Below are positions 1 through 16,108 of a DNA stretch of 64,000 nt, piece after piece (position 1 is the first letter of the stretch; every line of letters starts with the position of its first letter). This DNA is from Chloroflexi bacterium 54-19. Its GTDB lineage: Bacteria; Chloroflexota; Chloroflexia; Chloroheliales; Chloroheliaceae. A program made the position numbers and the translations under genes. The notes under the pieces are model-generated. The model saw only the letters and a program-made list of their open reading frames with translations, was not told the DNA's origin and made no database searches. The stretch covers positions 11,835-75,834 of the forward strand of contig MKTJ01000028.1 of assembly GCA_001898225.1 (NCBI GenBank), in the 5' to 3' direction.

Positions 1-1580
1 GCCTCGGTCCCGCCGATAATTTGCAGGGCCATCGCGGCTTCCTGGTAGCGCGACTTAAACTGACCCAGGTCCACGCAGGGGCGGCTCAGTACGAGCGAAA
101 AACTCATCGGCTCGAACTTGGCGGTTAACTGGTTCTTGACTTCCTGGGCGAAATACTTGGCGCGCTGGCGGGACTGCTCCATGGTCAAATTGTTCGAAAT
201 ACCCAGCATAATCACCAGCATATCGCTGCGGAAAGTGACGATACTCTTGGGATGCTGCTGGGTCACCAGTTGCGACCCAAATTTTAGCAACTGGTTTTTG
301 ATAGATAAAATGGCGTTTTCTTCAAGTTGGTAGCGCTGGATATAACCCCGGAAGTCGTCAATATCGGCCAGGATGAACCAGTAGCGGCAGTTGGCATCGT
401 AACCGACCAGGCTGGCCCGGTTGACGATATGTTCATCGTTGGTCCCGGCCAGGATTTCTTCCAGGAGTTCGCCGCGCAATCGCCGCTCCACCTCAAAAAT
501 GGACTGCTCTTTTATCATTTCCAGGGCGATAATTGTCGCGGCCTGCTCGATGGCGACGTTGGCAAAATCTACCCCGGTCTCGTTACCTAACCGGCCTGTG
601 CAGATAAATCCGAGCTTTTCGTTTCCGGCCTGAATCGGCATGACTTTGGGGTCAATGATAGGCCGGTGAAAGTCATTTAATTTGCCATTATCGAGCTGGT
701 AGGACCGGTGATTATTATAGGCCAGCAAACTATCGAACTGTCGCCACCACCCATTCGCCAGCGGTTCGACCCCCTGCGGGTAAGCCAGGGCGATTGGATG
801 GTAAACCATATCGAGGATAACCACCGGCTGTTTTAAAATATCGGAGAGGGCCTGGGTAATGACGGGCAGGCCCCGGTTTTGCAGGGCCAACGCGGCCAAA
901 GTCTTGTGGATATTGAGAGCGTGTTCGAGCTGGCGGGCTTGCTGGCGAATAATCCGGTTCAAGTCGGCCTGTTCCTGGAAGGATTCGCGTTGTTTTTCGT
1001 ACAGGCGGGAGTTTTCGATGGAAATGGTGGCCTGGCTGGCGAAAGATTGGAGCAAATCGAGGTCGAACTCGGTAAAGGCGTTCTGGTCCGAGAAATTGTT
1101 GACCGTAATGACGCCCAGGACCTGCCCTTTGAAATTCAGGGGGGCGCACATCACGCTCTGGGCCGTCAGGGGGGTGAGATTGGGTTGCAACGAGCGGTTC
1201 CCCGGCGACATATTGACAATACCTTCGTGGATGATTTTATCGCCGGAAAAAAGGACCGCTTTATTGGCAGAAAAAGCGTACCCGGTCATGGACTCGCCTG
1301 GCCGGAGCTTCATTCGCTCTATATTTTCAGTGATAAAACCAACCCAGGATTTCGCCTCGAGAATATCTTTCACCGGGTTATAGAGAAAGAGGGCCACGGC
1401 ATCCACCCCTGGGATGACCTGGGGAATTGCCTCCAGGATGGTTTGAATAACGGTAGAACTTTCGAGTGAAGCCGTTAAAAGACGGGCTACCTCGGTCAGT
1501 TTCTGAAGGCGATCTCTTTCTATCTGGGCCTGGTTCTGATAGTGCGGCGGACTGGGTTTGGTCAGGGTACTTTTCCTCAT
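1..1580 (-). CDS. GAF-domain PucR/CdaR-type transcriptional regulator (partial, C-terminus beyond window edge)
   Basis: Open frame of 526 codons on the minus strand, from ATG at 1580 (GGAGTGAG about 8 bases upstream) to the window edge with no stop. Residues about 25-175 look like a GAF sensor domain, followed by a helical linker and a segment typical of PucR regulators. From about residue 395 there is the CdaR/PucR GGDEF-like region, beginning ERRLRGELLEEILAG and including a LGQFKSRYQEAAMALQI stretch. The family ends in an HTH_30 DNA-binding domain, which would lie beyond base 1. Such regulators usually control adjacent catabolic or transport genes. This one is divergent from the peptide ABC genes, so it is the likely regulator of the locus to its right (inference). 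Confidence 0.85.
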   Translation of the reverse strand, partial: MRKSTLTKPSPPHYQNQAQIERDRLQKLTEVARLLTASLESSTVIQTILEAIPQVIPGVDAVALFLYNPVKDILEAKSWVGFITENIERMKLRPGESMTGYAFSANKAVLFSGDKIIHEGIVNMSPGNRSLQPNLTPLTAQSVMCAPLNFKGQVLGVITVNNFSDQNAFTEFDLDLLQSFASQATISIENSRLYEKQRESFQEQADLNRIIRQQARQLEHALNIHKTLAALALQNRGLPVITQALSDILKQPVVILDMVYHPIALAYPQGVEPLANGWWRQFDSLLAYNNHRSYQLDNGKLNDFHRPIIDPKVMPIQAGNEKLGFICTGRLGNETGVDFANVAIEQAATIIALEMIKEQSIFEVERRLRGELLEEILAGTNDEHIVNRASLVGYDANCRYWFILADIDDFRGYIQRYQLEENAILSIKNQLLKFGSQLVTQQHPKSIVTFRSDMLVIMLGISNNLTMEQSRQRAKYFAQEVKNQLTAKFEPMSFSLVLSRPCVDLGQFKSRYQEAAMALQIIGGTE

Positions 1581-2059
1581 GCAATCTCACTCCGGGTTTC
1601 GTAGCCTTCTGGCTATTTTAATTGCTTTTTGACATTTAGTCTTTGTTTATATTAACCAATAATAGCGTAAATTTTTGTGAGATTCAATAAAGAGATTACC
1701 AAATTTAGATTTTCACTCCTAACAGTACGGACAGAATTTATTTAGCATAGCCAGAAAGTCCCAGTTTTGTGTTCTTTCACAAAAATTTGTCTTACTTTTT
1801 GTGATTTATCCCATAGTAAGTTTGAAAAAAACTTGGTAGACTAATACAAATCTTTCCCTGCTCAGGAAGTTAATAGAATTTTGAGTTGTTATCTCACCGA
1901 ATCATAGCTGCTCAAAACCTAGTTTCAATTTCTGGCGATTACAACGAATTCAACGGTGAAACCTCGAAAATTTCAAATCGACTGTGCCTGGGAGAATAAA
2001 GTTCTCCCCTGTTTTAGGTGTGCCCATTTTAATCAAAATTCACTTGAGGAGAAGATTTA
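1581..2059. promoter_or_regulatory. Divergent intergenic region with repeated TTTTTGTGA half-sites
   Basis: A 479-base AT-rich gap between the regulator and the binding-protein gene. It contains a perfect inverted repeat, TCACAAAAA (1777-1785), ten bases, then TTTTTGTGA (1796-1804), and a third copy of TTTTTGTGA at 1672-1680. These are candidate operators for the divergent PucR-type regulator (inference). I could not assign a convincing -35/-10 pair for either gene. Confidence 0.45.
1990..2014 (+). terminator. Leader hairpin upstream of the peptide-binding protein gene
   Basis: GGGAGAA (1990-1996), loop TAAAG, TTCTCCC (2002-2008), then CTGTTTT. It is a short stem with a weak U tract about 45 bases before the start codon. 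It could act as an attenuator or 5' stabilising stem; only the structure is visible. Confidence 0.3.
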
Positions 2060-3964
2060 ATGGAGAAATTTCGTCGTTACACGGTTCCTTTACTGGCGAT
2101 TCTCATGCTGCTCACGAGTGTAGTGCTGGCGGCCTGCGGTGATGCCACCGCCACGCCCGCAGGTACTACGCCAACCGTTCCAGTAGCTACAGCGCCCGCA
2201 CAGGCTCCAACCGCCGCTTTGAGTAGCGGCACTACGGCGGCAAGTACCACGGCTGCGGCGACTACTGCCGCCGCGACCACGGCAGCCAACGCAACGACCT
2301 CCGCTGCTACTAGCGCCGCCGCGACTACAGCGGCTGCCACCACGGCTGCCGCGACTACGGCGGCTGCCACCACCGGTAAAAAGGGTGGCAACGCGACCAT
2401 AGTTACGACCCAGGACGCCAAAACCCTGCACCCTTATAACTGCACCGACGTTTACTGCGTTGCTTACATCGCCCGAATCTATGGCGGTTTCGCCAGCGGC
2501 GGTGGTGGCTACCTGGTAAACCGCGATGCCAAAACCCTGGAAGTTAAACCGCTCTTCGCCAAGAGCTGGACGGTTGACCAGCAGGCTCTTACCGTAACCT
2601 ACACTCTGCGCGACGACCTCAAATGGAGTGACGGCACCGCGATTACCAGCGATGATTTCCTCTGGACCTACCAGCAGGCTATCAAAAAAGAAAACAACTG
2701 GGTCCGCTACGGTACGGCTATCGCTGACAAAAGCGTTCCGAACTCGCCCGGTGTAATCGACTACCAGGCCCCTGATCCGCACACCATCAAAGTCTTCCTG
2801 CACACCCTGACCTTCGATATGCCCGAACGCGCCGACATCATTGTGCCGTTGCCGCGCGCCCAGTGGGAAGGCAAGGATTGGAGTGACCCGACCAAGAACC
2901 CGAACATCGACAATCCGACTGTTACCAGCGGCCCCTGGAAACTGAAATCCTGGGACAAAGGCAAGAGCATCGTGCTGGTCCGCAACGACCTTTCGACTGC
3001 CATCCAGCCGCCTTTGCTCGACAGCCTGACCGAAGTTACCGTTGACAACGCCTCGATTGGTTTCCAGAAAATCAAGAGTGGTGAAGCGGACGCCTTCGAA
3101 AACATGATGGGCTTCTCGGCCCAGGACGTCGCCGAAGCCAGCACCCTGCCCAACGCAACGGTTTACAAGTGGACCCCGGCTAATGCGTCCTGGAACGAAA
3201 TTGCTTTCAACTTCCGGCGCACTTATCTCCAGGATGTCAATGTCCGCACGGCCATGAACTACGTGATTGACCGCCAGGCTATCATTGATAAAGTCTACTA
3301 TGGCCTGGCCGTACCGATGGACTCGGATGTTCCGCCGTCGAGTATAATGTACGATAAAAACGCGGTTGTGCATTATACCTATGACCCGGATAAGGCCAAG
3401 AAGATACTTTCGGACGCCGGATATACTCTCAAGGACGGTAAGCTGATCGACCCGAAAGGGGTAGCATTACCGAAGATGAAGCTGGTCTATTCGAGCAACT
3501 TCCCTGAGTCGGTAAAGACGGCCCAGATTGCCCAGCAGGAATTCAACAACCTCGGTTTCGATGTTGACCTGGTCGGGCAGGACTTCAACACCGTGTTGAA
3601 GACCATTCAGCAAGAGCCGTTTGACTTCGACCTGTTGGTTCTGGGTTGGAGCGCCAACATCAACCCGGAAACATTCGGTAGCGTCTGGACGACCATTCCG
3701 AGCCTGAACTTCGGTAACTGGGTTAACAAGCAGGTGAACGACCTGTACGCTTCCGCCCTGAAAGAATTCGATACTACCAAACGCAAAGCGATTATGAGCC
3801 AGATTCAGAAGATTGAGTCGACCGATGGTCCTTACATCTATGTAGTGGCCCAGACCGCTTTCGCGGTAGTCAATAACCGGATTGGCGGTGTAACGCCGAC
3901 AGCCCTGGGTATTGGTATCGATAACGTAGCTTACAGCTACGCCACAGACTGGTACATCAAGTAG
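2060..3964 (+). CDS. Peptide/amide ABC transporter substrate-binding lipoprotein (family 5, OppA/DppA-like)
   Basis: 634 residues, ATG at 2060 after GAGGAGAAG. The N-terminus is a lipoprotein signal peptide with lipobox LAAC, so Cys26 is the predicted lipid anchor. Residues about 29-107 are almost only Ala and Thr, a flexible tether. The rest is a family-5 solute-binding domain: an early DAKTLHPYN motif, DGTAITSDDFLWTYQ, and LKDGKLIDPKG with SSNFPESVKTAQIAQQEF near the C-terminus. The family binds peptides, but also nickel, polyamine-like and other small ligands. It stands first in a probable operon with two permeases. The downstream ethanolamine and amide genes suggest a peptide- or amide-linked ligand (inference). 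Confidence 0.93.
   Translation: MEKFRRYTVPLLAILMLLTSVVLAACGDATATPAGTTPTVPVATAPAQAPTAALSSGTTAASTTAAATTAAATTAANATTSAATSAAATTAAATTAAATTAAATTGKKGGNATIVTTQDAKTLHPYNCTDVYCVAYIARIYGGFASGGGGYLVNRDAKTLEVKPLFAKSWTVDQQALTVTYTLRDDLKWSDGTAITSDDFLWTYQQAIKKENNWVRYGTAIADKSVPNSPGVIDYQAPDPHTIKVFLHTLTFDMPERADIIVPLPRAQWEGKDWSDPTKNPNIDNPTVTSGPWKLKSWDKGKSIVLVRNDLSTAIQPPLLDSLTEVTVDNASIGFQKIKSGEADAFENMMGFSAQDVAEASTLPNATVYKWTPANASWNEIAFNFRRTYLQDVNVRTAMNYVIDRQAIIDKVYYGLAVPMDSDVPPSSIMYDKNAVVHYTYDPDKAKKILSDAGYTLKDGKLIDPKGVALPKMKLVYSSNFPESVKTAQIAQQEFNNLGFDVDLVGQDFNTVLKTIQQEPFDFDLLVLGWSANINPETFGSVWTTIPSLNFGNWVNKQVNDLYASALKEFDTTKRKAIMSQIQKIESTDGPYIYVVAQTAFAVVNNRIGGVTPTALGIGIDNVAYSYATDWYIK
2240..2375 (+). repeat. Ala/Thr-coding degenerate tandem repeat
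   Basis: Repeated units reading roughly AAATT at protein level (GCN and ACN codons in alternation) within the lipoprotein tether. The DNA copies have drifted at third positions, so selection appears to act on composition rather than on exact sequence. Confidence 0.8.
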
Positions 3965-3983
3965 TCAAAAGGGGTTGCCCAAA

Positions 3984-4019
3984 CCGGTTGCCGGACTAAA
4001 TCCATAGTCCGGCAACCGG
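3984..4019 (+). other. Perfect 15-bp stem-loop between binding-protein and permease genes
   Basis: CCGGTTGCCGGACTA (3984-3998), loop AATCCA, TAGTCCGGCAACCGG (4005-4019). No U tract follows, so it is more likely a 3' stabiliser or partial terminator that keeps binding-protein mRNA more abundant than permease mRNA, as is common in ABC operons (inference). Confidence 0.75.
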
Positions 4020-4043
4020 GTGGGTGAATTGAGGAGGCTTGTC

Positions 4044-5003
4044 TTGAGGCGGTTTATTATTCGCCGGGCTATTCAGTCAGTCTTGTTACTGCTGGCGATT
4101 AGCTTCATTGGTTTTATGATTGTCCATCTTGCGCCGGGTGGTCCTGAAGTCAAATTTATGATGGACCCGCGCATGACCCCCCAGGATATTTACAATATCC
4201 GGGAACATTACGGTCTGAACGACCCCTTACCGGTCCAGTATGGCAAATGGTTGCTGAACGCTTCGCACCTGGACCTGGGTGTGTCTTACGAATCGCTCTA
4301 CCCCGTCACCGATGAAATAATGCGGGCTCTGCCCAACACTCTCATTCTCATTACAGCCGGGATGGTATTAGGGTTGCTCGGTATACCGATTGGCATCTTT
4401 ATCGCTTTGCGGCGCGGCAGATTCACTGACAACCTGGTCAGGGTCTTAACCGTGGCCGGAAGCGCCATTCCCTCCTGGTGGTTGGGTCTCTTAATTCTGC
4501 TTGGAACGAGCAACCTGGCTATTTCTACAGGGATTAAAATCCTGCCTTTGCCCGGTTACAACGCCGCCGAGACCAACAATCCCTGGTACTTTGTCTGGCA
4601 GTTGGTGTTGCCTTCCATATTGATTGCCCTGGCCGGCTGGTTGACCTACAGCCGTATTACCCGCACCCAGGTGTTGGATATTCTGAGCCAGGACTATATA
4701 CGGACCGCCCACTCCAAAGGTTTGAACCAGCAGGATATTAACCAGCACCACATCTTAAAGAACGCTCTTATTCCAATCATCACGACTTTCGGGGCGCAGT
4801 TGCCTTTGCTGATTGGTGGTTCCATCATCTTCGAGGAAATTTTTAGCCTGCCCGGTATTGGCAAACTGACCATAGACTCGCTAACCAGGAGTGATTTCCC
4901 GGTAGCTATCGGGGTGTTGATGTTTGTTTCGCTTGTTTCGGTAGGTGCTTTGTTTATTTGCGACATCCTTTATGCCCTGGTAGACCCGCGAGTACGCTAT
5001 TAG
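4044..5003 (+). CDS. ABC transporter permease, DppB/OppB type
   Basis: 319 residues from TTG at 4044, which has GAGGAGG six bases upstream. A GTG at 4020 in the same frame lacks such a site and lies in the preceding hairpin. The protein starts MRRFIIRRAIQSVLLLL and has about six membrane segments. The binding-protein-dependent permease region includes the coupling-loop pattern HSKGLNQQDINQHHILKNALIP. It would form a heterodimeric channel with the next gene product. No OppD or OppF ATPase gene follows, so ATPases must be supplied from elsewhere. Confidence 0.92.
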   Translation: MRRFIIRRAIQSVLLLLAISFIGFMIVHLAPGGPEVKFMMDPRMTPQDIYNIREHYGLNDPLPVQYGKWLLNASHLDLGVSYESLYPVTDEIMRALPNTLILITAGMVLGLLGIPIGIFIALRRGRFTDNLVRVLTVAGSAIPSWWLGLLILLGTSNLAISTGIKILPLPGYNAAETNNPWYFVWQLVLPSILIALAGWLTYSRITRTQVLDILSQDYIRTAHSKGLNQQDINQHHILKNALIPIITTFGAQLPLLIGGSIIFEEIFSLPGIGKLTIDSLTRSDFPVAIGVLMFVSLVSVGALFICDILYALVDPRVRY

Positions 5004-5015
5004 AAGGTTAATTTG

Positions 5016-5999
5016 ATGACACGTAGCACATCTGAGATTCTCGAACCTGAGGTTACTACAACTACTCCCACCATACCGGTGGCAAAAGATAAAGACCCAA
5101 GAGGGTTCTTTAAAACCGCGCTGTCCCGGTTCTTCAAACGCAAACTAAACGTGGTGGCCCTGGTGGTCTTTGGTTTTATCGCGATAATCAGCGCCATCGC
5201 GCCGATTCTGACTTCTACCTTTATCGGGACCACGCCCGCTTATTTCCGGGCCAGTTTTTCTCCGGCCTATGCGCCCCCCGGCACCACGGAAACGCTGCGG
5301 ACCGGGGCCAACGTGGTCCACTGGCTCGGTACTGACGAACTCGGACGCGATACCCTGACCCGGTTACTGCATGCCGGTGGAGCGTCGCTTTCGATTGGTT
5401 TTCTGGTAGCGATTATTATCGTGTTGATTGGGGTGCCCGTCGGACTGCTGAGCGGTTTCTTCGGCGGCTGGGTGGACGACTTTTTCAACGCGATTATCCA
5501 GATTATCAATAACATTCCGGGCCTGTATCTGTTTATCATTCTCGCCGGGATTTTCCGGCCTGATATCCTTTTTCTCTCGCTCATCTTCGGCTTATTAAGC
5601 TGGACCCAGACCGCCCGGCAAGTCCGAGGTCTGACGTTGACCATGCGTAACCGGGAGTTCGTGACAGCCTCGATTGCGGTAGGGGCCCGTTACCCGCGTA
5701 TCCTGGTCCAACACCTTTTACCTAACATTGTCTCAATCCTCGTTGTCCTGGTAGGAGCGGATATTGCCCTCGCTATGCTCGGTGAAGCCGCGCTCAGCTT
5801 CCTGGGCTTTGGTATCCGCGACCCCGATGTAAGTTGGGGCAAGCTGCTGGCTAACTCGTCCAACTACCTGACATATTCCGGAAACCATAACCCGTTCCTG
5901 ATTATTGGTCCTGGTATGATGATTTTCATTACTATTTTGTCTATTTATCTGATCGCGGATGGCTTACGCGATGCGTTCGATCCGGCTTTGCGAAAATAA
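5016..5999 (+). CDS. ABC transporter permease, DppC/OppC type
   Basis: 327 residues from ATG at 5016 (AGAAGG upstream; a TTG at 5013 is the alternative). It has a cytosolic N-terminal extension of about 35 residues, the OppC N-terminal membrane helix, then the permease domain with HWLGTDELGRDTLTRLL, diagnostic for DppC/OppC, and the coupling loop at VAVGARYPRILVQHLLPN. It follows the other permease after 12 bases. The next gene encodes a cytosolic peptidase, which fits import followed by hydrolysis. Confidence 0.92.
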   Translation: MTRSTSEILEPEVTTTTPTIPVAKDKDPRGFFKTALSRFFKRKLNVVALVVFGFIAIISAIAPILTSTFIGTTPAYFRASFSPAYAPPGTTETLRTGANVVHWLGTDELGRDTLTRLLHAGGASLSIGFLVAIIIVLIGVPVGLLSGFFGGWVDDFFNAIIQIINNIPGLYLFIILAGIFRPDILFLSLIFGLLSWTQTARQVRGLTLTMRNREFVTASIAVGARYPRILVQHLLPNIVSILVVLVGADIALAMLGEAALSFLGFGIRDPDVSWGKLLANSSNYLTYSGNHNPFLIIGPGMMIFITILSIYLIADGLRDAFDPALRK

Positions 6000-6043
6000 T
6001 ATCTCTATTATCTTATTTTGAATTAAGGCACTCTGTCTTGCCG

Positions 6044-6072: not shown

Positions 6073-6078
6073 GTATTT

Positions 6079-6166: not shown

Positions 6167-8023
6167 ATGATTGAAACTATGAGTGTTCCAGCCGTACGGC
6201 CCGGTTTTTATCCGCCGAGCTTTACCGCCGGGATGTTAGCTCAACTCCGGCACGTTGGGGATGCGTTCTGGTCGCCCGATGGCCGGTATATTTTCTACCC
6301 GCAGGACTTCGATGGCCGGACCGACCTGTACCGACTGGACCTTGAAACGGGCCGGGCCCTGCAAGTTACGACCGATGTTGAGGCCGGGGGTCTGCTCAAA
6401 ATTGCCATGTCGGGCCGGGACATTTCACCGGACGGCAAACAACTGGTTTACCTGAACGGCAAAGACGGGCGGCTCTGGCTGATGCCTTCCGGTGGAGGTA
6501 TCGCCAAACGCCTGACCCCACACGTTGAAGGTTCTCAGCACAGCGCCGCTTTCTCGCCGGACGGCAGCCAGGTGGCCTATATCGCCGCTTTTGGCGACAA
6601 CCAGGATATTGCGGTTGTCAGCAGCGACGGTGAAGGCTGGCCGCAGCGAATCAGCCGGGGCGACTACTTTGTCTTTGACCCGCAGTGGCTCCCGGACGGC
6701 CAGAGCCTGGTCTACGGCGAACACGATAACAAACGGATGCCTTTCTTTGAGACCCGGCTGGTTAAGGCCGACCTCAAGACCGGCCAATTTACGGTACTGG
6801 CCGACGGTTGGGGTAAAAATACCGCCATTTCCGCCCCGCGCCCTTCCCCGGACGGTCGCTGGTTGGCCTATCTTTCCAACGAAAGCAACTGGACCAATCT
6901 CTATCTCTTAAACCTTGAGAGAGGTAAGGTCCACCCGGTCGCTCCCGGCGCGGTTGAGCAGGGTTCCCCGGCCTGGAGCCCCGATAGCAAGGGGTTGGCC
7001 TATACGGTCAACCAGCACAGTGACATCAGTCTGAACTACACGACCCTGGAAGGCAAAACGACAGTCATTTCGGATGGTGAGGGTGTCTGCGAGGGGCCGA
7101 GTTTCTCGCCGGACGGCAAGAAACTGACTTTCTTAAAACAGAGCAGCGTTTCCCCGGCCAACCTCTATCTTTACGACTTCGCCGACCAGACCACCCGGGC
7201 CCTGACCGACGCGACGGTCGGAGGCGTGGAGGAAGCCGACCTTGTCAACGCTGAGGTGGTCCACTGGACTTCGCCCGACGGTCTCGAAGTCGAGGGTTTG
7301 CTCTATGTGCCGAAACAGGTCCAGCCAGGTAAACATCCCCTGCTATTGCATGTCCACGGCGGGCCGATTGCCCAGTACAACCGCCGCTTTGATGCCGGGG
7401 TCCAGCATTGGGTCAGCCGGGGCTGGGTCGTCATCGAGCCGAACTTCCGAGGCAGCACCGGTTATGGCCGGGACTTCCGCGACAAACTGCGCGGCACCTG
7501 GGGCCACGAGGATATGCTCGACAACCTGGGTGGAATTGACTTTGCCAACTCACGGGGCCTGATTGACCCGAAAAAGGTCGTGGCATGGGGCGGTAGCGGC
7601 GGCGGTTACGCCACCAACCTGCTGCTCGGCAAGTGGCCGGAGAAATTCAAAGCCGGGGTATCCCTGGTCGGCGTCAGCAATTTTCAGAGCTTCCCGGACC
7701 AGACAGACCGGATTGCCCAGCCGCTGATTGACGAAATTCTGGGCTGGCGGCACGAGAACTACGACCTGTACGGCGAACGCTCGCCCGTGACCTTTGCCAA
7801 GGACGTTAAAGCGCCCCTGCTGGTGGTTATGGGAGCGGAAGACCGGCGCGTCCCGGCCAAACAGGGCGAAGAAATGATTGAAGCGCTCAAGAAGGCCGGT
7901 AAAACCGACTTCGAGTACGTTAGCTACGCGGGAGAAGGGCATGGCTGGCGCAAGGTATCCACCCTCCTTGACCATCACCGCCACATGCAAGAGTTCCTTA
8001 AAAAGTGGGTGCTGGACCGCTAA
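6167..8023 (+). CDS. S9 family (prolyl-oligopeptidase-type) serine peptidase
   Basis: 618 residues, ATG at 6167 with AGGGAG upstream and no signal peptide, so cytosolic. Residues about 25-340 form a beta-propeller of TolB/PD40 repeats (several SPDG motifs), which limits entry to small peptides. The C-terminal 260 residues are the alpha/beta hydrolase domain. The nucleophile is Ser477 in WGGSGGGY, with Asp559 (GAEDRRVP) and His592 (GEGHGW) completing the triad. The family cleaves short peptides or acyl-peptides. Its place after the uptake genes suggests that it processes the imported substrate (inference). Confidence 0.92.
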   Translation: MIETMSVPAVRPGFYPPSFTAGMLAQLRHVGDAFWSPDGRYIFYPQDFDGRTDLYRLDLETGRALQVTTDVEAGGLLKIAMSGRDISPDGKQLVYLNGKDGRLWLMPSGGGIAKRLTPHVEGSQHSAAFSPDGSQVAYIAAFGDNQDIAVVSSDGEGWPQRISRGDYFVFDPQWLPDGQSLVYGEHDNKRMPFFETRLVKADLKTGQFTVLADGWGKNTAISAPRPSPDGRWLAYLSNESNWTNLYLLNLERGKVHPVAPGAVEQGSPAWSPDSKGLAYTVNQHSDISLNYTTLEGKTTVISDGEGVCEGPSFSPDGKKLTFLKQSSVSPANLYLYDFADQTTRALTDATVGGVEEADLVNAEVVHWTSPDGLEVEGLLYVPKQVQPGKHPLLLHVHGGPIAQYNRRFDAGVQHWVSRGWVVIEPNFRGSTGYGRDFRDKLRGTWGHEDMLDNLGGIDFANSRGLIDPKKVVAWGGSGGGYATNLLLGKWPEKFKAGVSLVGVSNFQSFPDQTDRIAQPLIDEILGWRHENYDLYGERSPVTFAKDVKAPLLVVMGAEDRRVPAKQGEEMIEALKKAGKTDFEYVSYAGEGHGWRKVSTLLDHHRHMQEFLKKWVLDR

Positions 8024-8048
8024 CCCAGGCCCCGTGCTTTAGCTTTGC

Positions 8049-8311: not shown

Positions 8312-9256
8312 ATGGCTTCTCATCAGTTGCCCGCCGAAACGCTGCATTATTGTTGGGACAATTCTATCCCGCCTCGCCTCGAAATTGAAGCGGGTGATAC
8401 TGTCTTTTTTGAAACCCAGGACGCGAGCGATGGCTTCGTCAAGCCAGGGATTACTATCGAAAAGTATGTCACCAGAAAGGCCAAAGGCCACCCCCTGACC
8501 GGCCCGGTCTTTATTAAAGGTGCGAAACCGGGTGATATTGTCGAACTCGAAATTTTGAATATAAAAACGGGCGGGTATGGTTGGACCGGCTTCCGGCCTG
8601 GTGTCGGTCTTTTGCCGAACGATTTTAAAGAATCCTCGTTCCATATCTGGGACTTGAAAGAGTCACGCGCTACGGGCAGTTGGGCCGAGTTTGTAGAAGG
8701 TATCAAGATTCCGCTGGACCCCTTCTGTGGAGTGATGGGGTTAGCACTGGCCGAACCTGGCGAATTCAGCACCACGCCGCCTCGCGCCGTTGGCGGCAAC
8801 ATGGATATTCGCCAGCTAACCGTCGGCAGCAAGGTCTGGCTGCCGGTCCAGGTCGAGGGGGCGCTCTTTTCGATTGGTGACATGCACGCCGCCCAGGGTG
8901 ACGGTGAGGTTTGTGTCACGGCAATCGAAACCGGAGGGGAAGTTGCGGTCCGCTTCAATTTGCGGCAAGATAAATCGATCAAGGAACCCTGGTTTTGGAC
9001 CCCGGCAGCCGGGCGCAGCGAATTAGGCGCTAAAGGCTATTTTGCGACAACTTCGCACTCACCGGACCTGTTCTACGCCAGCCAGCAGGCCGTTCGCTAT
9101 ATGATTGAACACCTGGTGGAAACCTATCACCTGTCGGCGGAGCAAGCCTACATCCTGTGCAGCGTGGCGGTCGAGCTAAAAATTAGCCAGATTGTAGACG
9201 GACCAAACTTTACCGTCAGCGCCTTTATGCCCAACGCGATATTCCCGAACACCTAG
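8312..9256 (+). CDS. Acetamidase/formamidase family amidohydrolase
   Basis: 314 residues, ATG at 8312 after GGGAG. Family features are IEAGDTVFFETQDASDG near the N-terminus, GPVFIKGAKPGDIVELEI, a central PPRAVGGNMDIRQL, and SIGDMHAAQGDGEVC, the usual FmdA/AmdA core. Length and order match the family. These enzymes release ammonia from short amides such as formamide or acetamide; the true substrate here is unknown. It is followed by an amide-forming ligase-like protein and amidohydrolases, so the cluster is rich in amide chemistry. Confidence 0.93.
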   Translation: MASHQLPAETLHYCWDNSIPPRLEIEAGDTVFFETQDASDGFVKPGITIEKYVTRKAKGHPLTGPVFIKGAKPGDIVELEILNIKTGGYGWTGFRPGVGLLPNDFKESSFHIWDLKESRATGSWAEFVEGIKIPLDPFCGVMGLALAEPGEFSTTPPRAVGGNMDIRQLTVGSKVWLPVQVEGALFSIGDMHAAQGDGEVCVTAIETGGEVAVRFNLRQDKSIKEPWFWTPAAGRSELGAKGYFATTSHSPDLFYASQQAVRYMIEHLVETYHLSAEQAYILCSVAVELKISQIVDGPNFTVSAFMPNAIFPNT

Positions 9257-9304: not shown

Positions 9305-10684
9305 ATGAGTCTTCCGGTTGATATAAAAAACGATGTTTTGAGATTGACAAAGGAAGGCGGTATAAAACAAATCCGCTTTCTCTACTGCGATAACGGAGGG
9401 ATTATCCGGGGCAAATCGGTCGGCTGGCAATCCCTGGCCGACCGGATAAACGGCGGGGTCGGCCTGACCGTTGCTATGCAGGCTATGAACGGGCTCGATG
9501 AACTGGTGCCGATACAGGGAGTGGGGGCTGCCGGGGAAGTGCGGCTAACCCCCGACCTGCGCACTTTCAAGATTTTACCCTACTCACCCCGCGCCGCCAT
9601 GATGATTTGCGACATGCTGGAACTGGACGGCCAGCCCTGGGAACTTTGCCCGCGCTCGTTCTTACGGCGCATCGTGGAGCAGGGCCGGGGCGAGTTTGGC
9701 CTGACCATCCTGGCCGCCTTCGAGCCGGAGTGGTCACTGGCCCGGCGCGGGCTGGACGGCTCCTATACGGCCATTGATGACAGCCTCTGTTTTAGCACCA
9801 TCGGCATGACCACCCAGGCCGCCATGATTGACGAACTGCTCGGCGCGTTCGAGGCTCAGAACCTGAAGGTAGAGTTGTATCACCCCGAACTGGCTCACGG
9901 CCAGCAAGAACTGAGCATCAGCCCGGCCCGCGCCCTCGAAGCCGCCGACAACCATATCATCTATCGCGAAACGGTCCGGTCGGTCGCCTGGAACCACGGC
10001 TTGTTTGCCTCGTTCGCGCCCAAACCGTTTATCAACCAGGCCGGAAACGGCAACCACGTACATATAAGCGCCTGGACCGGCGACCAGGGCGACCAGAACC
10101 TTTTTTACGACCCGTCCGACCCCTACAGCCTGAGCCAGACCGGCTACTATTTTATCGGTGGCATCCTGGAACATCTCCCAGCCCTGGTAGCCCTGACCTG
10201 TCCTTCGGTCAACAGCTACCGGCGTTTGCAGCCAAAAGCCTGGTCCTCGGCTTACACCTGTTACGGCTTTGATAACCGGGAGGCGGCGGTCCGTATCGCT
10301 TCGACCTTACGCGGTAAAGAAAGCAGTTCGATAAATTTGGAGATAAAAGCTTCGGACAACACGAACAACCCCTACCTGGCGCTGGGCGGAATTATCGCGG
10401 CGGGCCTGGACGGGGTCCGGCGCAAACTCCATCCCGGCGAAAAGTTAAGGGCCGAGGTTGACCCGGCCACCATCCCGGAAGAAGAGAGGCTCGAACGGGG
10501 CATCAAGGCGCTGCCTACCAGCCTCGGACAGGCCCTCGACAACCTGGAAAAAGACGAGGTGCTTTTGAACGCCCTGGGCGGCAAGCTGGCGAAAACCTAT
10601 ATCGCCGTGCGCCGTTCGGAGGAAAAGTCTTACGCGGCCAGGACCACCGATTTCGAGCTGAACTCACATTTTTATAAATACTAA
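9305..10684 (+). CDS. Glutamine-synthetase-like ligase (gamma-glutamyl-amine ligase / FluG C-terminal type)
   Basis: 459 residues. The glutamine synthetase fold is clear: a beta-grasp N-terminus, FEPEWSL in place of the usual E-x-E-F region, HGQQELSISPARALEAADN, GNGNHVHIS carrying the ammonia-site His, NSYRRLQPKAWSSAY, and the C-terminal NLEIKASDNTNNPYLALGG. The adenylylation-site region of GlnA is not recognisable. Divergent members ligate glutamate to amines (PuuA, GlnA3/GlnA4, TdnQ-like). The adjacent amidohydrolase and ethanolamine ammonia-lyase make an amine such as ethanolamine a candidate substrate (inference). It is probably cotranscribed with the next gene, 14 bases away. Confidence 0.88.
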   Translation: MSLPVDIKNDVLRLTKEGGIKQIRFLYCDNGGIIRGKSVGWQSLADRINGGVGLTVAMQAMNGLDELVPIQGVGAAGEVRLTPDLRTFKILPYSPRAAMMICDMLELDGQPWELCPRSFLRRIVEQGRGEFGLTILAAFEPEWSLARRGLDGSYTAIDDSLCFSTIGMTTQAAMIDELLGAFEAQNLKVELYHPELAHGQQELSISPARALEAADNHIIYRETVRSVAWNHGLFASFAPKPFINQAGNGNHVHISAWTGDQGDQNLFYDPSDPYSLSQTGYYFIGGILEHLPALVALTCPSVNSYRRLQPKAWSSAYTCYGFDNREAAVRIASTLRGKESSSINLEIKASDNTNNPYLALGGIIAAGLDGVRRKLHPGEKLRAEVDPATIPEEERLERGIKALPTSLGQALDNLEKDEVLLNALGGKLAKTYIAVRRSEEKSYAARTTDFELNSHFYKY

Positions 10685-10698
10685 CTCTTAAAAGGCCA

Positions 10699-11880
10699 AT
10701 GTTAGATATAACCGATATTGCGGCAGTTGACCACCATTGTCACCTGCCGCTTGATGAAGCGCCTCCTTTGCGGGCCGCCGGGCTGGCCCGCTTTTTTACC
10801 GAGGCATCTATCCCGGAAGTGCTGGAAACTCAGACCCCCCACAGCCTGTTCTTCCGGCGGGCCGTCCGCGACATTGCCACCGTCCTGGGTCTTTCTACCG
10901 AAGACTACGTGGACTCCAGGGGCAACCTGCAATTTGAAACAGTCCTGGCGAAACGGGCCGAATACAGCGCGGACGACTGGTTCCGGTTGATGCTGGAAAA
11001 GGCCAACCTGGATGCCCTCTTTGCCGATATGGGCTACCCCCGGAGCGGCGGCTGGACGGTCGAGAAGGCCCAGAAGGCCGCCGGGTCGATGGATAACCCG
11101 CCGCTTATCCGCTCCATTTTACGGATCGAGCGGATTTTCGAGGACTTAATCCTCGAATATGACACTTTCGACCAGGCCGAGGAAGTTTTTCGGGAGACCA
11201 TCCGGCAGGCCCGCCAGCATGGAGCGGTTGGTCTAAAAAGTATCATCGCCTATCGTTGCGGCCTCGATATTGAGCCGGAAAAGACCTCGAAATATCACGC
11301 AAGCCAGGCTTTCCAGAAGTACAAGTCCGAGACTTACCGCACCGGCACCTATGCCCGTATCGCGGATAAAGCCCTGCTCGACTATGTTGTGCTGGCGGCC
11401 CTGGAAGAAGCGGCCAAGCAGGAGTTGCCGGTCCAGTTCCATACCGGCTTTGGTGATACCGACGTGGATTTAGTGAAGGCAAACCCGGCCTATATGAAGC
11501 CCATTTTCGAGAATCCGGCCTTGCGGAAAGCCCCTATCGTGCTGCTGCATTGCTATCCGTACATCCAGGAGGCCTCTTACGTGGCCGCGATGTACCCGCA
11601 GGTCTTCATGGACTTTTCGCTGTCGTCGCCGCTGGTGGCTTTTGGCGGCGGTCGGGCCATCGAAGAAGCTCTCGGCCTCGCGCCCAGCACCAAAGTCCTT
11701 TATGCCAGCGACGCCTGGGGTGTGCCGGACATTATTTACCTGGGCTCCCTGCACTCCCGCAAAGTCCTGACCGGGGTCTTAAACCGCTGGATTAGTGATG
11801 GCTGGATGGACGAACGCGAGGCCCGCCAGGTTGCCCTGAACGTTTTGCAACTTAATTCAAAAAGTCTTTACCAGGGATAA
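10699..11880 (+). CDS. Amidohydrolase-2 family metal-dependent hydrolase (FluG N-terminal type)
   Basis: 393 residues, ATG at 10699 with AAAGG upstream. TIM-barrel amidohydrolase: the metal-binding HxH is His13 and His15 in VDHHCHL, with LPVQFHTGFGD, a strand-6 histidine in VLLHCYPY, and a late aspartate in YASDAWG. In fungal FluG and plant NodGS this domain is fused in front of a glutamine-synthetase domain; here the two are separate neighbouring genes. A likely role is hydrolysis of a gamma-glutamyl amide or related compound made by the partner (inference). Confidence 0.87.
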   Translation: MLDITDIAAVDHHCHLPLDEAPPLRAAGLARFFTEASIPEVLETQTPHSLFFRRAVRDIATVLGLSTEDYVDSRGNLQFETVLAKRAEYSADDWFRLMLEKANLDALFADMGYPRSGGWTVEKAQKAAGSMDNPPLIRSILRIERIFEDLILEYDTFDQAEEVFRETIRQARQHGAVGLKSIIAYRCGLDIEPEKTSKYHASQAFQKYKSETYRTGTYARIADKALLDYVVLAALEEAAKQELPVQFHTGFGDTDVDLVKANPAYMKPIFENPALRKAPIVLLHCYPYIQEASYVAAMYPQVFMDFSLSSPLVAFGGGRAIEEALGLAPSTKVLYASDAWGVPDIIYLGSLHSRKVLTGVLNRWISDGWMDEREARQVALNVLQLNSKSLYQG

Positions 11881-11881
11881 A

Positions 11882-12060
11882 GTAGTCAGAGGTCAGAAGT
11901 CAGAGGTCAGTAAGGGTTGTTTGTGATATTGCAACTCTAAACATAGAGTCAAATCTTGGTTATAAATCAGATTTTTATCCGAGAATGCAAACACTGAGAA
12001 CGAAAGTAAGCAGGAATTAGGCGGTTAAAAACTGGCCTCCGGCTACTGACCTCTCACTAC
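11882..12060. repeat. MITE-like intergenic element with inverted terminal repeats
   Basis: The left end is GTAGTCAGAGGTCAG followed by a tandem copy of AGTCAGAGGTCAG (11882-11910). The right end, 12043-12060, reads in reverse complement GTAGTGAGAGGTCAG, matching 14 of 15 bases. The 130 bases between are non-coding. A related pair of ends occurs at 61119-61276. Confidence 0.5.
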
Positions 12061-12082
12061 TAAAAAACAAGGAACCGAAAAC

Positions 12083-12928
12083 ATGGATATTGTTGACTCT
12101 CAGGTCCATTTTAATCTGCTCGGCGACCTGGAAGCGGGTATCGCGGCGATGGACGCGGTCGGCGTGAAGGCGTTGCTCTATGACGAATTCTGGGGCTTTG
12201 ACGCCAAATCGCGCATCCTGCCCGGCTACGAACTGCCCAACGGCGCTTTCAGGTACACCTTCCAACAGGCCGAAATCGCCGCCATGAAATACCCCGACCG
12301 CTTCGCTTACCTGGTGCGCTTCGACCGGGACGACCCCGAACTGGATTACCTTATAAGCACAGTAGGAAAAATGCCCGGACGTCTGGCGATGCGGGTAGTG
12401 CCCTGGACCCCCGAAGGCTTCGAGCAGTTCGGCCAGGGCGCGGACGAGGCAATTTTCGCCGCCGCCCAGAAATACAATGTGCCGGTCTTCGTGCTGATAC
12501 CGGGGCGGACTCACCTGCTCGAACCCTACTTGAAGAAATTCCCCGGTGTAAAGGTCATAATCGACCACTGCGGCGTGAATATCTCTTTTGCGAGCAAGCC
12601 CGCCGATATCTTCGAGGGTTTCGAGGAGGTCTTCAAGATGGCCCAGTACCCGAACGTCGCCCTCAAATGGGCCCACGCGCCTTCGCTTTCGTCGCAGCCC
12701 TACCCCTTTAATGACCTCATGCCGGTGCTGGTCAAGGTGGTCGAGAAATTCGGGCCGGAGCGGGTCATGTGGGCCAGCGACCACAGCCAGAACAAGAAGT
12801 TTTACTCCTGGGCCGAGTCGTTGTTCTATATCCGCGACACCACCGAACTAGCCGAGTCGGATAAGGTCTGGCTGCTCGGCAAGAGTGCTCGCACCTGGCT
12901 GAACTGGCCGCAACCCGCCGCACAATAG
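12083..12928 (+). CDS. Amidohydrolase-2 family protein (second, divergent)
   Basis: 281 residues, ATG at 12083 with AAGGA upstream. Shorter than its neighbour. It begins MDIVDSQVHFN, so the first His of the HxH metal motif is replaced by Gln (Q-x-H), a variant seen in several amidohydrolase-2 proteins. Later come VIIDHCGVNI and WASDHSQNKKFYSW, where the Asp is the expected catalytic residue. The fold is that of ACMSD-like decarboxylases and lactone or amide hydrolases, so the reaction cannot be named. The next gene starts 11 bases downstream, indicating cotranscription. Confidence 0.85.
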   Translation: MDIVDSQVHFNLLGDLEAGIAAMDAVGVKALLYDEFWGFDAKSRILPGYELPNGAFRYTFQQAEIAAMKYPDRFAYLVRFDRDDPELDYLISTVGKMPGRLAMRVVPWTPEGFEQFGQGADEAIFAAAQKYNVPVFVLIPGRTHLLEPYLKKFPGVKVIIDHCGVNISFASKPADIFEGFEEVFKMAQYPNVALKWAHAPSLSSQPYPFNDLMPVLVKVVEKFGPERVMWASDHSQNKKFYSWAESLFYIRDTTELAESDKVWLLGKSARTWLNWPQPAAQ

Positions 12929-12939
12929 GAGAAAGAAAG

Positions 12940-13848
12940 ATGCTTGACGAACAGGGCTATTTGCCGATTACCGACAGCAAATCGGGCCAAACTTTTAAAA
13001 TCTGGTATCGCCGGATTGGGGGCGAGCACCCGACCAAAACGCCGCTTTTGTGCCTGCACGGCGGGCCGGGGGCTTTGCACAACTACCTGCTAAATATGCA
13101 GGAACTGGCCTCGGAAGACCGCCAGGTGATTTTTTACGACCAGCTTGGCTGCGGCAACTCCGATATTCCCAACGACAACTCGCTCTGGCGGGTGGACCGT
13201 TTCGTGGAAGAACTGGCCCAGGTCATCGCCGGGCTTGGCCTTGAAAAGGTCCACCTGCTCGGTCAGTCCTGGGGTGGGATGCTGGCTATCGAGTACGCCC
13301 TGACCCAACCGGGCACCATTGAAGGGCTCATCCTGGCGAATACCCTTTCGAGCATGCCGTTATGGGTGAGCGAGGCCAACCGCTTGCGCGATGAACTGCC
13401 GCCTGAAATTCAGGCGACCCTGCTCAAACACGAAGCCGAAGGGACCACCGACAGCGAGGAATACCAGACCGCCATCCTGGCTTTCTATGACCGCCACGTC
13501 TGCCGGGTGCCCTGGCCGGACTACGTCGCCTATAGCTTTGGACATATCCTGGACGGTCCGGTATATTTGTACATGAACGGACCGAGTGAGTTTCACGTTA
13601 TCGGGGTTATCAAGGACTGGGACCGCACAGCCGACCTGCCTCAGATAAAACTGCCGACCCTGATAATTTCAGGGCGCTACGACGAGTCGACCCCGGCCAT
13701 CAACGAACTGCTAAACAAAGGCATCGCCGGGTCGGAGTGGCATATGCTGGATAATAGCTCGCACCTGGCCCACGTCGAAGAACCGGAAGTTTATTTCCCG
13801 CTGGTCCGCCAGTTTTTAGATAAAGTGGAAGCCGCCAAGACAGCCTGA
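12940..13848 (+). CDS. Proline-iminopeptidase-like alpha/beta hydrolase
   Basis: 302 residues, ATG at 12940 after GGAGAAAG. The oxyanion-hole motif LHGGPG at the N-terminus and GQSWGG around the nucleophile Ser110 are typical of the tricorn-interacting aminopeptidase/PIP group. Asp248 (SGRYDEST) and His275 (NSSHLAHVEEPE) complete the triad. A helical cap lies between. Known members release N-terminal proline or other residues from small peptides, and some act on amino-acid amides. The position between amidohydrolase and lyase genes suggests a role in releasing ethanolamine or amino acids from the imported compound (inference). Confidence 0.88.
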   Translation: MLDEQGYLPITDSKSGQTFKIWYRRIGGEHPTKTPLLCLHGGPGALHNYLLNMQELASEDRQVIFYDQLGCGNSDIPNDNSLWRVDRFVEELAQVIAGLGLEKVHLLGQSWGGMLAIEYALTQPGTIEGLILANTLSSMPLWVSEANRLRDELPPEIQATLLKHEAEGTTDSEEYQTAILAFYDRHVCRVPWPDYVAYSFGHILDGPVYLYMNGPSEFHVIGVIKDWDRTADLPQIKLPTLIISGRYDESTPAINELLNKGIAGSEWHMLDNSSHLAHVEEPEVYFPLVRQFLDKVEAAKTA

Positions 13849-13859
13849 CGGAATTGCTT

Positions 13860-15245
13860 ATGTACCACCAGACCCTGGGCCGCAAATCCTATAGTTTTCC
13901 CGACCTCAAGACGCTCCTGGCGAAAGCCACGCCCGACCGCTCCGGCGACCACCTGGCGGGCGTGGCCGCCGAGAACGCGGCGGAACGGGTCGCGGCCCAA
14001 CTCTGTCTGGCCGAAGTCCCCCTCCAACGCTTTTTAGAAGAACCACTCATCCCCTACGAGATTGACGAGGTCACGCGCCTCATTTTTGATACCTTCGACC
14101 AGTCCGCCTTTGGTCCGGTCAGCCACCTGAACGTGGGCGAGTTTCGCAACTGGCTCCTTTCGGACGAACGCACTTCCGCCGAGTTAGCCGACCTCGCGCC
14201 CGGCCTGATGCCGGAGATGGTCGCGGCGGTCTCGAAAATAATGCGTAACCAGGACCTGATTACGGTCGCTCGCAAGTGCCAGGTCATCACGAAATTCCGC
14301 AACACCATCGGCCTGCCCGGTCGTCTTTCGGCCCGACTCCAACCCAACCACCCGACCGACGACCTCAAAGGGGTGGCCGCCTCAATTCTGGACGGGCTGC
14401 TTTACGGCTGCGGCGACGCGGTTATCGGCATCAACCCGGTCACGGACGACCACCGCGTCCTCTCCGACCTGCTAAAGATGATTGACGACCTGCGGCAGCG
14501 TTTCGAAATCCCGGCTCAATCCTGCGTCCTCGGCCACGTCACGACGCAGTTAGAAGCCCTGCGCCAGGGCGCGCCCGTTGACCTCGTCTTCCAGTCTATC
14601 GCCGGGACCGAGGCGACCAACCGCAGCTTTGGCATCAATTTACGAATGCTGGAAGAAGCCCGCGAAGCGGCCCTGGCCTTGAACCGGGGCACTCTCGGCC
14701 AGAACGTGATGTATTTCGAGACCGGGCAGGGAAGCGCCCTCTCGGCGGACGCCCATCACGGCCTCGACCAGCAGACCTGTGAAGCCAGGGCTTACGCGGT
14801 GGCCCGCCATTTCAAACCGCTCCTGGTCAATACGGTGGTAGGATTTATCGGTCCCGAATATCTCTTTGACGGCAAACAAATCACCCGCGCCGGGCTGGAA
14901 GACCACTTTTGTGGCAAACTGCTCGGTTTGCCGATGGGCTGTGATGTTTGCTATACCAACCACGCCGAGGCTGACCAGGACGACATGGACAATCTGTTAA
15001 CCCTGCTGGGTGTGGCCGGATGTACCTATTTCATGGGCGTGCCCGGCGCGGACGACATCATGCTGAGCTACCAGAGCACCTCTTTTCACGACATCCGGTA
15101 TCTCCGGTCGGTCCTGAAGTTGCGCCCGGCCCCGGAGTTCGAGGAATGGCTTGTCAAAATGGGCATCACGGGGGAGGACGGCGAACTGACCCGGATAGAT
15201 TTTCATAATCCCCTTATACGAAGTCTGCCGGAATTCACCTTTTGA
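13860..15245 (+). CDS. eutB: Ethanolamine ammonia-lyase large subunit
   Basis: 461 residues from ATG at 13860, 11 bases after the preceding stop. A TTG at 13854 is possible. Full-length EutB with AAENAAERVAAQ, NVGEFRNWLLSDERT, VARKCQVITKFRNTIGLPG, PNHPTDDLKGVAASI and GLPMGCDVCYTNHAEADQDDM. With EutC it forms the adenosylcobalamin-dependent enzyme that turns ethanolamine into acetaldehyde and ammonia. No cobalamin adenosyltransferase, EutA reactivase, acetaldehyde dehydrogenase or shell-protein gene lies in the window, so the lyase would work free in the cytosol with partners elsewhere. Confidence 0.97.
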   Translation: MYHQTLGRKSYSFPDLKTLLAKATPDRSGDHLAGVAAENAAERVAAQLCLAEVPLQRFLEEPLIPYEIDEVTRLIFDTFDQSAFGPVSHLNVGEFRNWLLSDERTSAELADLAPGLMPEMVAAVSKIMRNQDLITVARKCQVITKFRNTIGLPGRLSARLQPNHPTDDLKGVAASILDGLLYGCGDAVIGINPVTDDHRVLSDLLKMIDDLRQRFEIPAQSCVLGHVTTQLEALRQGAPVDLVFQSIAGTEATNRSFGINLRMLEEAREAALALNRGTLGQNVMYFETGQGSALSADAHHGLDQQTCEARAYAVARHFKPLLVNTVVGFIGPEYLFDGKQITRAGLEDHFCGKLLGLPMGCDVCYTNHAEADQDDMDNLLTLLGVAGCTYFMGVPGADDIMLSYQSTSFHDIRYLRSVLKLRPAPEFEEWLVKMGITGEDGELTRIDFHNPLIRSLPEFTF

Positions 15246-15274
15246 TTTGAAATACAACCGGAAAGAGCTACGGC

Positions 15275-16108
15275 ATGCCTGAAGAACCTGCCTCTATCCC
15301 ACCCGAACCGGGCGAAACGCACTCACCGGATGAGGGCTTAACGCTTGCCAACCCCGATTCCGGCGGTGACGCCAGTGTCATCGAAAATCCCTGGCAAAGT
15401 TTGCGCCGGTTCACCCCGGCCCGAATTGCCCTGGGCCGCACCGGGCACAGTCTCCCCACCCGCGAACTACTAAACTTTCAACTGGCCCACGCCCAGGCCC
15501 GTGACGCCGTCTATAGCGCGTTCGACCCGAACCTGGTGGCGGGGCAACTGGCCGAACGCGGCTATTCCTCCTTACAGGTCCACAGCCAGGCTACGGACCG
15601 CACCGCCTTCCTCAAACGGCCCGACCTGGGCCGCCGCTTAAACCCCACCGCCCGTGAGACCCTCCTTGAATACGCCTCGCAAGGCCATCCCACGCCCGAC
15701 CTGGTGTTCGTGCTGGGAGACGGTCTATCGGCGGAGGCCATCCACCGCCACGCCGTCCCGGTCCTCGACCTGACCGCCCAGGCTTTGCAGGCCGAAGGCT
15801 GGCAAATTGGCCCCGTTGTAATCGCCAGCCAGTCGCGGGTCGCCCTCGGTGACGAAATTGGCCAACTCCTAAAAGCGGGGCAAGTCGCTATCCTGATAGG
15901 CGAAAGGCCGGGGCTTAGCGCCGCCGACAGTTTGGGTATATACTTGACTTACCAGCCTCACGTTGGCCGTTTAGAGTCGGAACGAAACTGCATATCAAAT
16001 GTCCGGCCCGAAGGCTTATCCTACGAGGCAGCCAGTTCGACCCTGCTTGACCTGGTCAAAAGGGCGAAGCTTTTCCACTACAGCGGTGTCAAACTCAAAG
16101 AACAATGA
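15275..16108 (+). CDS. eutC: Ethanolamine ammonia-lyase small subunit
   Basis: 277 residues, ATG at 15275 with GGAAAGAG upstream. Typical EutC features are FTPARIALGRTGHSLPTRELLNFQLAHAQARDAV, PDLVFVLGDGLSAEAIHRHA, IGERPGLSAADSLGIYLTY and ERNCISNVRPEGLSYEAA. A Pro/Glu-rich N-terminal extension of about 40 residues precedes the core, comparable to the solubility-affecting N-terminus of enteric EutC. It follows eutB by 29 bases and ends the catabolic operon. Confidence 0.97.
   Translation: MPEEPASIPPEPGETHSPDEGLTLANPDSGGDASVIENPWQSLRRFTPARIALGRTGHSLPTRELLNFQLAHAQARDAVYSAFDPNLVAGQLAERGYSSLQVHSQATDRTAFLKRPDLGRRLNPTARETLLEYASQGHPTPDLVFVLGDGLSAEAIHRHAVPVLDLTAQALQAEGWQIGPVVIASQSRVALGDEIGQLLKAGQVAILIGERPGLSAADSLGIYLTYQPHVGRLESERNCISNVRPEGLSYEAASSTLLDLVKRAKLFHYSGVKLKEQ

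Follow-up and report, generated by a model that had tools for sequence, protein, structure and literature searches.

A compartment-less eutBC locus joined to peptide-type uptake and hydrolase genes in a Chloroflexota genus, possibly supplied by an imported ethanolamine-bearing amide

What supplies an ethanolamine ammonia-lyase whose genes stand at the end of a row of uptake and hydrolase genes? The question is raised by a 64,000-nt stretch of Chloroflexi bacterium 54-19 (assembly GCA_001898225.1, contig MKTJ01000028.1, forward-strand positions 11,835 to 75,834; hereafter the window), which is part of contig 28 in a genome of 9.25 Mb. Positions 2060-16108 (+) carry dppABC-S9-fmdA-GS-AH1-AH2-PIP-eutB-eutC, encoding a family-5 solute-binding protein (SBP5) with two permeases, an S9 peptidase, an FmdA-family acetamidase/formamidase, a glutamine synthetase (GS)-like ligase, two amidohydrolases (AH1, AH2), a proline-iminopeptidase-family (PIP) hydrolase and ethanolamine ammonia-lyase (EutBC). 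An initial annotation had listed this set as running nearly all in one direction, an inventory that holds gene by gene and position by position: all eleven genes are on the + strand and the regulator gene pucR alone lies opposite, divergent from them. EutBC is usually discussed with free ethanolamine as its substrate. Judging from gene families and gene order, we tentatively favour, at slightly less than an even chance, a compartment-less eut variant in which an ethanolamine-bearing amide would be taken up and hydrolysed inside the cell, giving EutBC its substrate and the cell a source of nitrogen.

The eutB and eutC genes are adjacent and both products exceed curated cut-offs (Table 1); EutB aligns with solved EutB 2QEZ across residues 10-446, and its start may be the ATG at 13860. 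No bacterial microcompartment (BMC) shell or EutA gene was detected in the locus (BMC was not searched genome-wide), and the 288-nt gap between S9 and fmdA and the 479-nt divergent region revealed no plausible compartment gene on inspection, in keeping with the initial description of the locus as lacking a microcompartment. The supposed novelty of that feature in itself is not sustained, as short eutBC-eat operons without a compartment have already been described (PMC6529630; this and the other PMC sources are cited from parts of their text). The window locus resembles those operons in having EutBC without compartment genes; unlike them, it has eutBC behind hydrolase and uptake genes, and no match to the permease Eat was found in five family members (G000-G004, including the three genus genomes). 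The same Eat search returned full-length proteins in G033 and G109, a weak match in G054 and none in G037. Since Eat is unmatched in G000-G004 and is encoded beside eutBC in five of 19 other EutB genomes (L026, L029, L031, L184 and L193, the L031 protein scoring above the ethanolamine-permease cut-off), the usual ethanolamine permease appears to be lacking here. A CobA-family adenosyltransferase gene is present for the cofactor; none of the three genus genomes matched the PduO-type adenosyltransferase (PF01923) or the FGase family (PF05013, gamma-glutamylglycine hydrolase), and no dehydrogenase is encoded in the locus. Amide import and hydrolysis followed by EutBC is favoured because Eat is unmatched, the CobA family is present and the hydrolase family of the glutamylation route is unmatched.

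Under this reading, DppABC, powered by ATPases encoded elsewhere, would bring in a small peptide-like amide, and S9, FmdA, the amidohydrolases, PIP and a peptide-amidase-type enzyme encoded beside pucR would cut capping bonds. PIP, whose gene ends 5 nt before eutB, would be the most likely releaser of ethanolamine, which EutBC would convert to ammonia and acetaldehyde; GS-AH1 may gamma-glutamylate the remaining product, an amine or amino acid, and PucR is the likely substrate-responsive switch. The amidase gene lies just outside the window on the same strand as pucR and is likely part of the locus. Among solved proteins its product is closest to the peptide amidases 1M21 (497 bits) and 5AC3 (491 bits), with the next best at 295 bits; peptide amidases cleave C-terminal amides. 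The earlier suggestion that an ethanolamine-bearing amide is imported and hydrolysed therefore fits the gene set, the lack of Eat and the peptide amidase next door, with its substrate and each enzymatic step being predictions.

The congener G001 has all eleven genes, together with pucR and the amidase gene, in the window order and orientation. Between the window and G001 the eleven proteins are 74-87% identical, with nonsynonymous divergence (dN) of 0.09-0.21 and saturated synonymous divergence (dS) of 1.15-3.4; the genes are under purifying selection, and the sole stop counted is the natural end of AH2, five codons early. The eutBC pair stays behind PIP in G001 at dS >1. Seven of the ten junctions in the window measure 5-55 nt (dppA-dppB 55, dppB-dppC 9, fmdA-GS 48, GS-AH1 14, AH2-PIP 11, PIP-eutB 5 and eutB-eutC 29 nt), the other three being dppC-S9 (167 nt), S9-fmdA (288 nt) and AH1-AH2 (202 nt). 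That the same 11 genes keep the same order in G001 is more than chance, and we take them to form one conserved block without compartment genes.

In the third genus genome, G002, the locus is damaged. The amidase gene adjoins pucR in all three genomes, and in G002 its open reading frame (ORF) breaks near the end. G002 (L014, L163) otherwise retains the last third of fmdA and GS (93%), and at 3731-5044 the first 238 residues of AH1 are fused in frame to nearly all of AH2; PIP, eutBC, dppABC and S9 were unmatched on this contig, while fmdA lacks its first two thirds and pucR most of its length. The broken reading frame, the missing genes, the AH1-AH2 fusion and a coverage of 5.5 make misassembly possible, and this truncated and fused locus is not relied on as an evolutionary intermediate. 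By eye, a C-terminal remnant of pucR is joined to fmdA at L014 1342-1937, and the break falls close to the site of a run of unknown bases in pucR of the window contig.

Two plasmid settings of eutBC parallel the one proposed and favour the amide reading. EutB matched in 148 plasmid records, and the contexts of 11 were examined. In pAoF64/95, eutBC adjoins an N-formylglutamate amidohydrolase gene, an amidase (33% identical over partial length to the amidase of the window genus) and SBP5-type ATP-binding cassette (ABC) sets, and in pAspH13-3a an SBP5-type ABC set and a Zn-dependent hydrolase lie upstream of eutBC. These Agrobacterium plasmids thus share with the window eutBC, an SBP5-type ABC system and an amidase or Zn-dependent hydrolase; unlike the window locus they carry kinases and ABC ATPases (and GDPD in pAoF64/95), and no GS, AH1, PIP or FmdA match was found in the stretches. 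In two others a FAD-dependent or D-amino-acid dehydrogenase precedes eutBC, and the remaining seven stretches had no dppB or dppC match; among these seven, the Serratia stretch has at its edge a match to a family-5 binding protein, M. nodulans has eat beside eutBC, and in pRiA4b an N-formylglutamate amidohydrolase gene is followed by the end of the record. None of the locus genes lies near the eutBC pair of a D. aquaticus plasmid. As an observation apart, two rhizobial plasmids (L217 4168-10210; L222 4196-10219) have, one after another, an amino-acid ABC set, a gene for a FAD-dependent or D-amino-acid dehydrogenase, and eutBC, an arrangement that possibly feeds ethanolamine from an N-hydroxyethyl amino acid.

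GS scores higher as a glutamylputrescine synthetase (484.6 bits, cut-off 650) than as GlnA (283.6 bits, cut-off 429), and its best solved match is 4HPP, which we take to be the Pseudomonas aeruginosa ligase PA5508. GS, 4HPP and the methylamine ligase 9QUR have a Trp in the loop where an archaeal GS has a Glu, presumably the catalytic Glu of the ammonia site; Trp occupies this position in 88 of the 120 listed GS homologues, the other 32 not being matched by the search pattern. GS accordingly resembles glutamyl-amine ligases rather than glutamine synthetase, as the initial annotation had proposed. AH1 had 2QPX as its sole solved relative at E<=0.1. Both 2QPX (LSEI_0440) and PA5508 are named as relatives of the halves of fungal FluG (PMC6478659), so that the solved proteins matched by GS and AH1 are those to which the FluG halves are also related; unlike FluG, GS and AH1 are separate genes set among uptake, peptidase and eutBC genes. 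AH1 occurs in 105 of 400 sampled Chloroflexota genomes (E<=1e-10), and GS directly adjoins it in 13 of 22 Chloroflexota AH1 loci outside the genus, including two divergent pairs. GS-AH1 is a widespread FluG-like pair. At one such locus (L139; GS 59%) a convergent family-5 binding-protein gene, 37% identical to dppA, lies right behind AH1; at L138 a weak dppA match (25%) is 2.5 kb away, and at L146 fmdA is beside AH1.

Comparable gene company is found in Deinococcus, which has AH2 relatives of 60-67% identity. GS matched in 15 plasmid records, and all five from Deinococcus have AH1 adjacent. An SBP5-type binding protein with two permeases accompanies the pair in four of these five loci, fmdA in three and PIP in two (42% and 29% identity); eutB or eutC matched in none, and no peptide-type ABC ATPase is annotated beside the permeases, the plasmid gene tables being incomplete. 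In D. peraridilitoris, dppABC-type and S9 genes are followed by an AH2 remnant. Because identities to the window are modest (mostly 22-49%, AH2 53-65%), the Deinococcus loci appear to be repeated assemblies from the same families and not close copies. DppA searched against plasmids at E<=1e-60 gave no match, and no other locus gene matched in the AH2 neighbourhood of Mycobacterium branderi. An Allomeiothermus plasmid (L205 7708-11477) carries GS-AH1 with an N-formylglutamate amidohydrolase gene, nearer to a complete glutamylation route.

A further, suggestive parallel for a PIP gene abutting eutB is offered by the Pip systems of plant-responsive LuxR solos (PipR/OryR type), which also combine SBP5-type uptake genes with a PIP-family hydrolase. 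Among these regulators, PipR is responsive to the ethanolamine-derived amide HEHEAA, and the response needs the ABC transporter (PMC10134790, PMC4981722). Around a LuxR gene on p42b of R. etli are two PIP genes, an SBP5-type ABC system and an FmdA gene. Unlike Pip systems, the window locus has a PucR-type regulator, eutBC and a DppA that is not AapF-like; among the locus genes no LuxR product was found, the regulator being of GAF/PucR type. Uptake of HEHEAA through an AapF orthologue was rejected as an established function here, DppA being only a distant SBP5 relative of AapF.

The observations in this paragraph and the next weigh against the amide reading. EutB exceeds its cut-off in 19 of the 400 sampled Chloroflexota genomes and matches in 12 of 61 relatives, one match being a scrap in G004 (short, with stops in the matched frame). 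We viewed the neighbourhoods of every EutB genome found outside the genus (n = 19; 18 from the 400-genome sample plus G054), in two of which a contig ends close to eutBC (L028 and L193). In none of the 19 did GS, AH1, AH2, fmdA, S9 or PIP match near eutBC (tblastn, E<=1e-5, within the fetched stretch), and the union of eutBC with the other locus genes is for that reason a feature of this genus, as far as sampled. Beyond the five genomes with Eat, seven encode an EutB of 54-56% identity, with compartment-type neighbours in six by eye and the seventh (L192) compared by tblastn only; Pfam confirms BMC in three of the six (L183, L186, L188), EutA in L186 and EutH in L183. Those compartment-type operons share the EutBC lyase with the window and, where read, have a BMC shell, EutA, aldehyde dehydrogenase or EutH beside eutBC, none of which is in the window locus. 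The other seven have neither Eat nor locus genes around eutBC (L027, L028 and L030 by eye, four by tblastn only), one of them (L195) with peptide-type permease matches 7.4 kb away. The gene-order comparison called for initially is thus divided, with the eleven-gene order kept in G001 and GS-AH1 and eutBC standing as separate units outside the genus, a split that counts against the initial grouping there.

Two families of the locus are common, so that their company weighs little alone: fmdA occurs in 190 of the 400 Chloroflexota genomes, with GS or AH1 in none of 11 fmdA loci (one being the second copy of the window genome) and matches to dppA, dppB and dppC at one (L153), and the PIP family appears in 185 plasmid records. 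Permeases of dppB/dppC type lie near eutBC in only two of the 11 plasmid contexts. The best solved match of DppA reaches 113 bits and AapF 61 bits, at rank 38 of 58; a Kosakonia relative of PipR responded neither to HEHEAA nor to ethanolamine (PMC7301841), and HEHEAA is not bound by a close homologue of AapF (PMC10134790/PMC4981722 literature). No ABC ATPase is encoded in the locus, with 24 oligo_HPY matches elsewhere in the genome. EutA matched in six of six genomes, full length (544 bits) only in G452 and elsewhere short (25-33 bits, at cut-off), leaving no full-length EutA in the genus genomes. The G002 genome (91% complete) has no EutB match and keeps GS among damaged neighbours. The AH2 model (pLDDT 93.8) is nearest to 4DLF/4DO7, COG3618-type amidohydrolase and pyrone-hydrolase structures, and sources label its relatives L-fuconolactonase; going by these nearest folds, AH2 may open a lactone or ester instead of an amide. 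The 288- and 202-nt gaps, finally, could divide the block into two or three transcripts.

Such a division is taken furthest in the view that the locus comprises two or three unrelated transcription units (dpp-S9, fmdA-GS-AH1 and AH2-PIP-eutBC) that are neighbours by ancestry only. Those two gaps and the occurrence of the modules apart in other genomes speak for it; the single strand, the order kept in G001 despite saturated synonymous change, the dppABC-S9 run followed by an AH2 remnant in D. peraridilitoris, and the dppABC, PIP or fmdA genes accompanying GS-AH1 in other Deinococcus all speak against it, and we consider it unlikely. A view with appreciably more weight, which we rate as possible at around one chance in three, is that of a general nitrogen-scavenging operon for peptides and amino-acid amides, as in Deinococcus, with eutBC a later passenger. 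No ethanolamine amide would then be involved, and free ethanolamine would enter by diffusion or come from the lipids of the cell itself. The Deinococcus plasmid loci, having this company without a eutBC match, suit such a history, as do eutBC pairs elsewhere in the class that stand with Eat or with neither Eat nor locus genes, and the presence of GS without an EutB match in G002. Against it, eutBC follows PIP by 5 nt in the window and has kept that place in G001 at dS >1, and the amidase/hydrolase and SBP5-type ABC setting of eutBC recurs on unrelated plasmids.

GS might also glutamylate ethanolamine itself, as in the gamma-glutamylethanolamide route of Streptomyces and a marine bacterium (PMC10132767), with EutBC as a bypass. 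The window shares with that route (Streptomyces GlnA4; marine ETAGA cluster, PMC10132767) a GS-like ligase in an ethanolamine setting, GS falls on the glutamyl-amine ligase side, and GlnA4 is a characterised gamma-glutamylethanolamide synthetase (PMC6529630). Dehydrogenases also belong to the published routes, as does a gamma-glutamylglycine amidohydrolase, which in Streptomyces is a member of the formylglutamate-amidohydrolase family (PMC6529630, PMC10132767). Unlike them, the locus has EutBC and no dehydrogenase, PF05013 is unmatched in G000, G001 and G002, and the best score of GS, for the putrescine type, is below its cut-off. Glutamylation of ethanolamine of the Streptomyces type is disfavoured by the missing FGase family and decidedly unlikely, and with it gamma-glutamylethanolamide, named initially among substrates for growth tests, as an intermediate.

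Returning to the imported amide, a more specific form of that reading, rather improbable as it stands, is a disassembly line for doubly capped peptides. DppABC would import an N-acylated or N-formylated peptide ending in ethanolamine (gramicidin- or HEHEAA-type), S9 and FmdA would strip off the N-cap together with its formamide or acetamide, the peptide amidase and PIP would cut the C-terminal ethanolamide, EutBC would consume the ethanolamine and GS-AH1 would gamma-glutamylate the remaining amine. If so, this would be the first operon for the catabolism of peptides capped with ethanolamine. We found no published description, in open-licence literature, of a locus in which eutBC is joined with a FluG-type pair, FmdA, PIP and genes for peptide-type uptake. 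If the broader amide reading is true, some bacteria take up larger amides and obtain ethanolamine from them by intracellular cleavage; substrates could be assigned to PIP-family hydrolases and FluG-type ligase-amidohydrolase pairs, and Pip systems, one of them responsive to an ethanolamine derivative, would be linked to a catabolic end point.

Table 1 Features of the eutBC locus, in window positions except for the amidase gene
Feature	Position	Strand	Basis or remark
Amidase gene, beyond the window start, beside pucR	L023 9669-11258	same as pucR	closest to solved peptide amidases
pucR, GAF-PucR-type regulator	3..1580	-	GAF + GGDEF_2 (Pfam); N-terminal 526 aa inside window
Divergent intergenic region, 479 nt	1581..2059		likely regulatory
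dppA, SBP family 5 solute-binding lipoprotein	2060..3964	+	PF00496 (SBP_bac_5) 242 bits; lipobox judged by eye
dppB, peptide-type ABC permease	4020..5003	+	PF00528, PF19300
dppC, peptide-type ABC permease	5013..5999	+	PF00528, PF12911
S9 peptidase, acylaminoacyl/prolyl-oligopeptidase type	6167..8023	+	PF00326; GxSxGG at aa 475
fmdA, FmdA/AmdA acetamidase-formamidase family	8312..9256	+	PF03069 204 bits; solved acetamidases 2ii1, 2f4l
GS, GS-like predicted gamma-glutamyl-amine ligase	9305..10684	+	Gln-synt_C; GGputSyn 484.6 bits; 4HPP, 9QUR
AH1, Amidohydro_2	10699..11880	+	matches 2QPX, relative of FluG N-terminal half
AH2, COG3618-type TIM-barrel hydrolase, Amidohydro_2	12083..12928	+	PF04909
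PIP, proline-iminopeptidase-family alpha/beta hydrolase	12940..13848	+	TIGR01250 308.7 bits (cut-off 167.65); solved proline iminopeptidases
eutB, ethanolamine ammonia-lyase large subunit	13854..15245	+	NF011649 728.6 bits (cut-off 554)
eutC, ethanolamine ammonia-lyase small subunit	15275..16108	+	PF05985; NF003971 316.8 bits (cut-off 230)

The pucR gene is cut by the window edge; in the contig it continues through a short stretch of unknown bases to a length of 643 aa. It is 79% identical in G001, and the intact congener orthologue (L025) ends in a PucR-type helix-turn-helix (HTH_30). The solved relatives of S9 are S9 and aminoacyl peptidases. No Rfam element, cobalamin riboswitch included, was found near the locus at the gathering threshold, and the promoter scan (12 versus 8.0 expected) and terminator scan (26 versus 19.8 expected) were not used as evidence. 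Elsewhere in the window, positions 56526-61136 encode an iron-dependent repressor (DtxR-type and FeoA domains) and an FhuF-like reductase (both by Pfam), followed by two FecCD-type permeases and an ATPase (by eye), with no binding-protein gene among the listed ORFs of at least 200 aa. At 40351-43295 an AraC-type regulator gene (by eye) is divergent from two phytanoyl-CoA dioxygenase-family genes.

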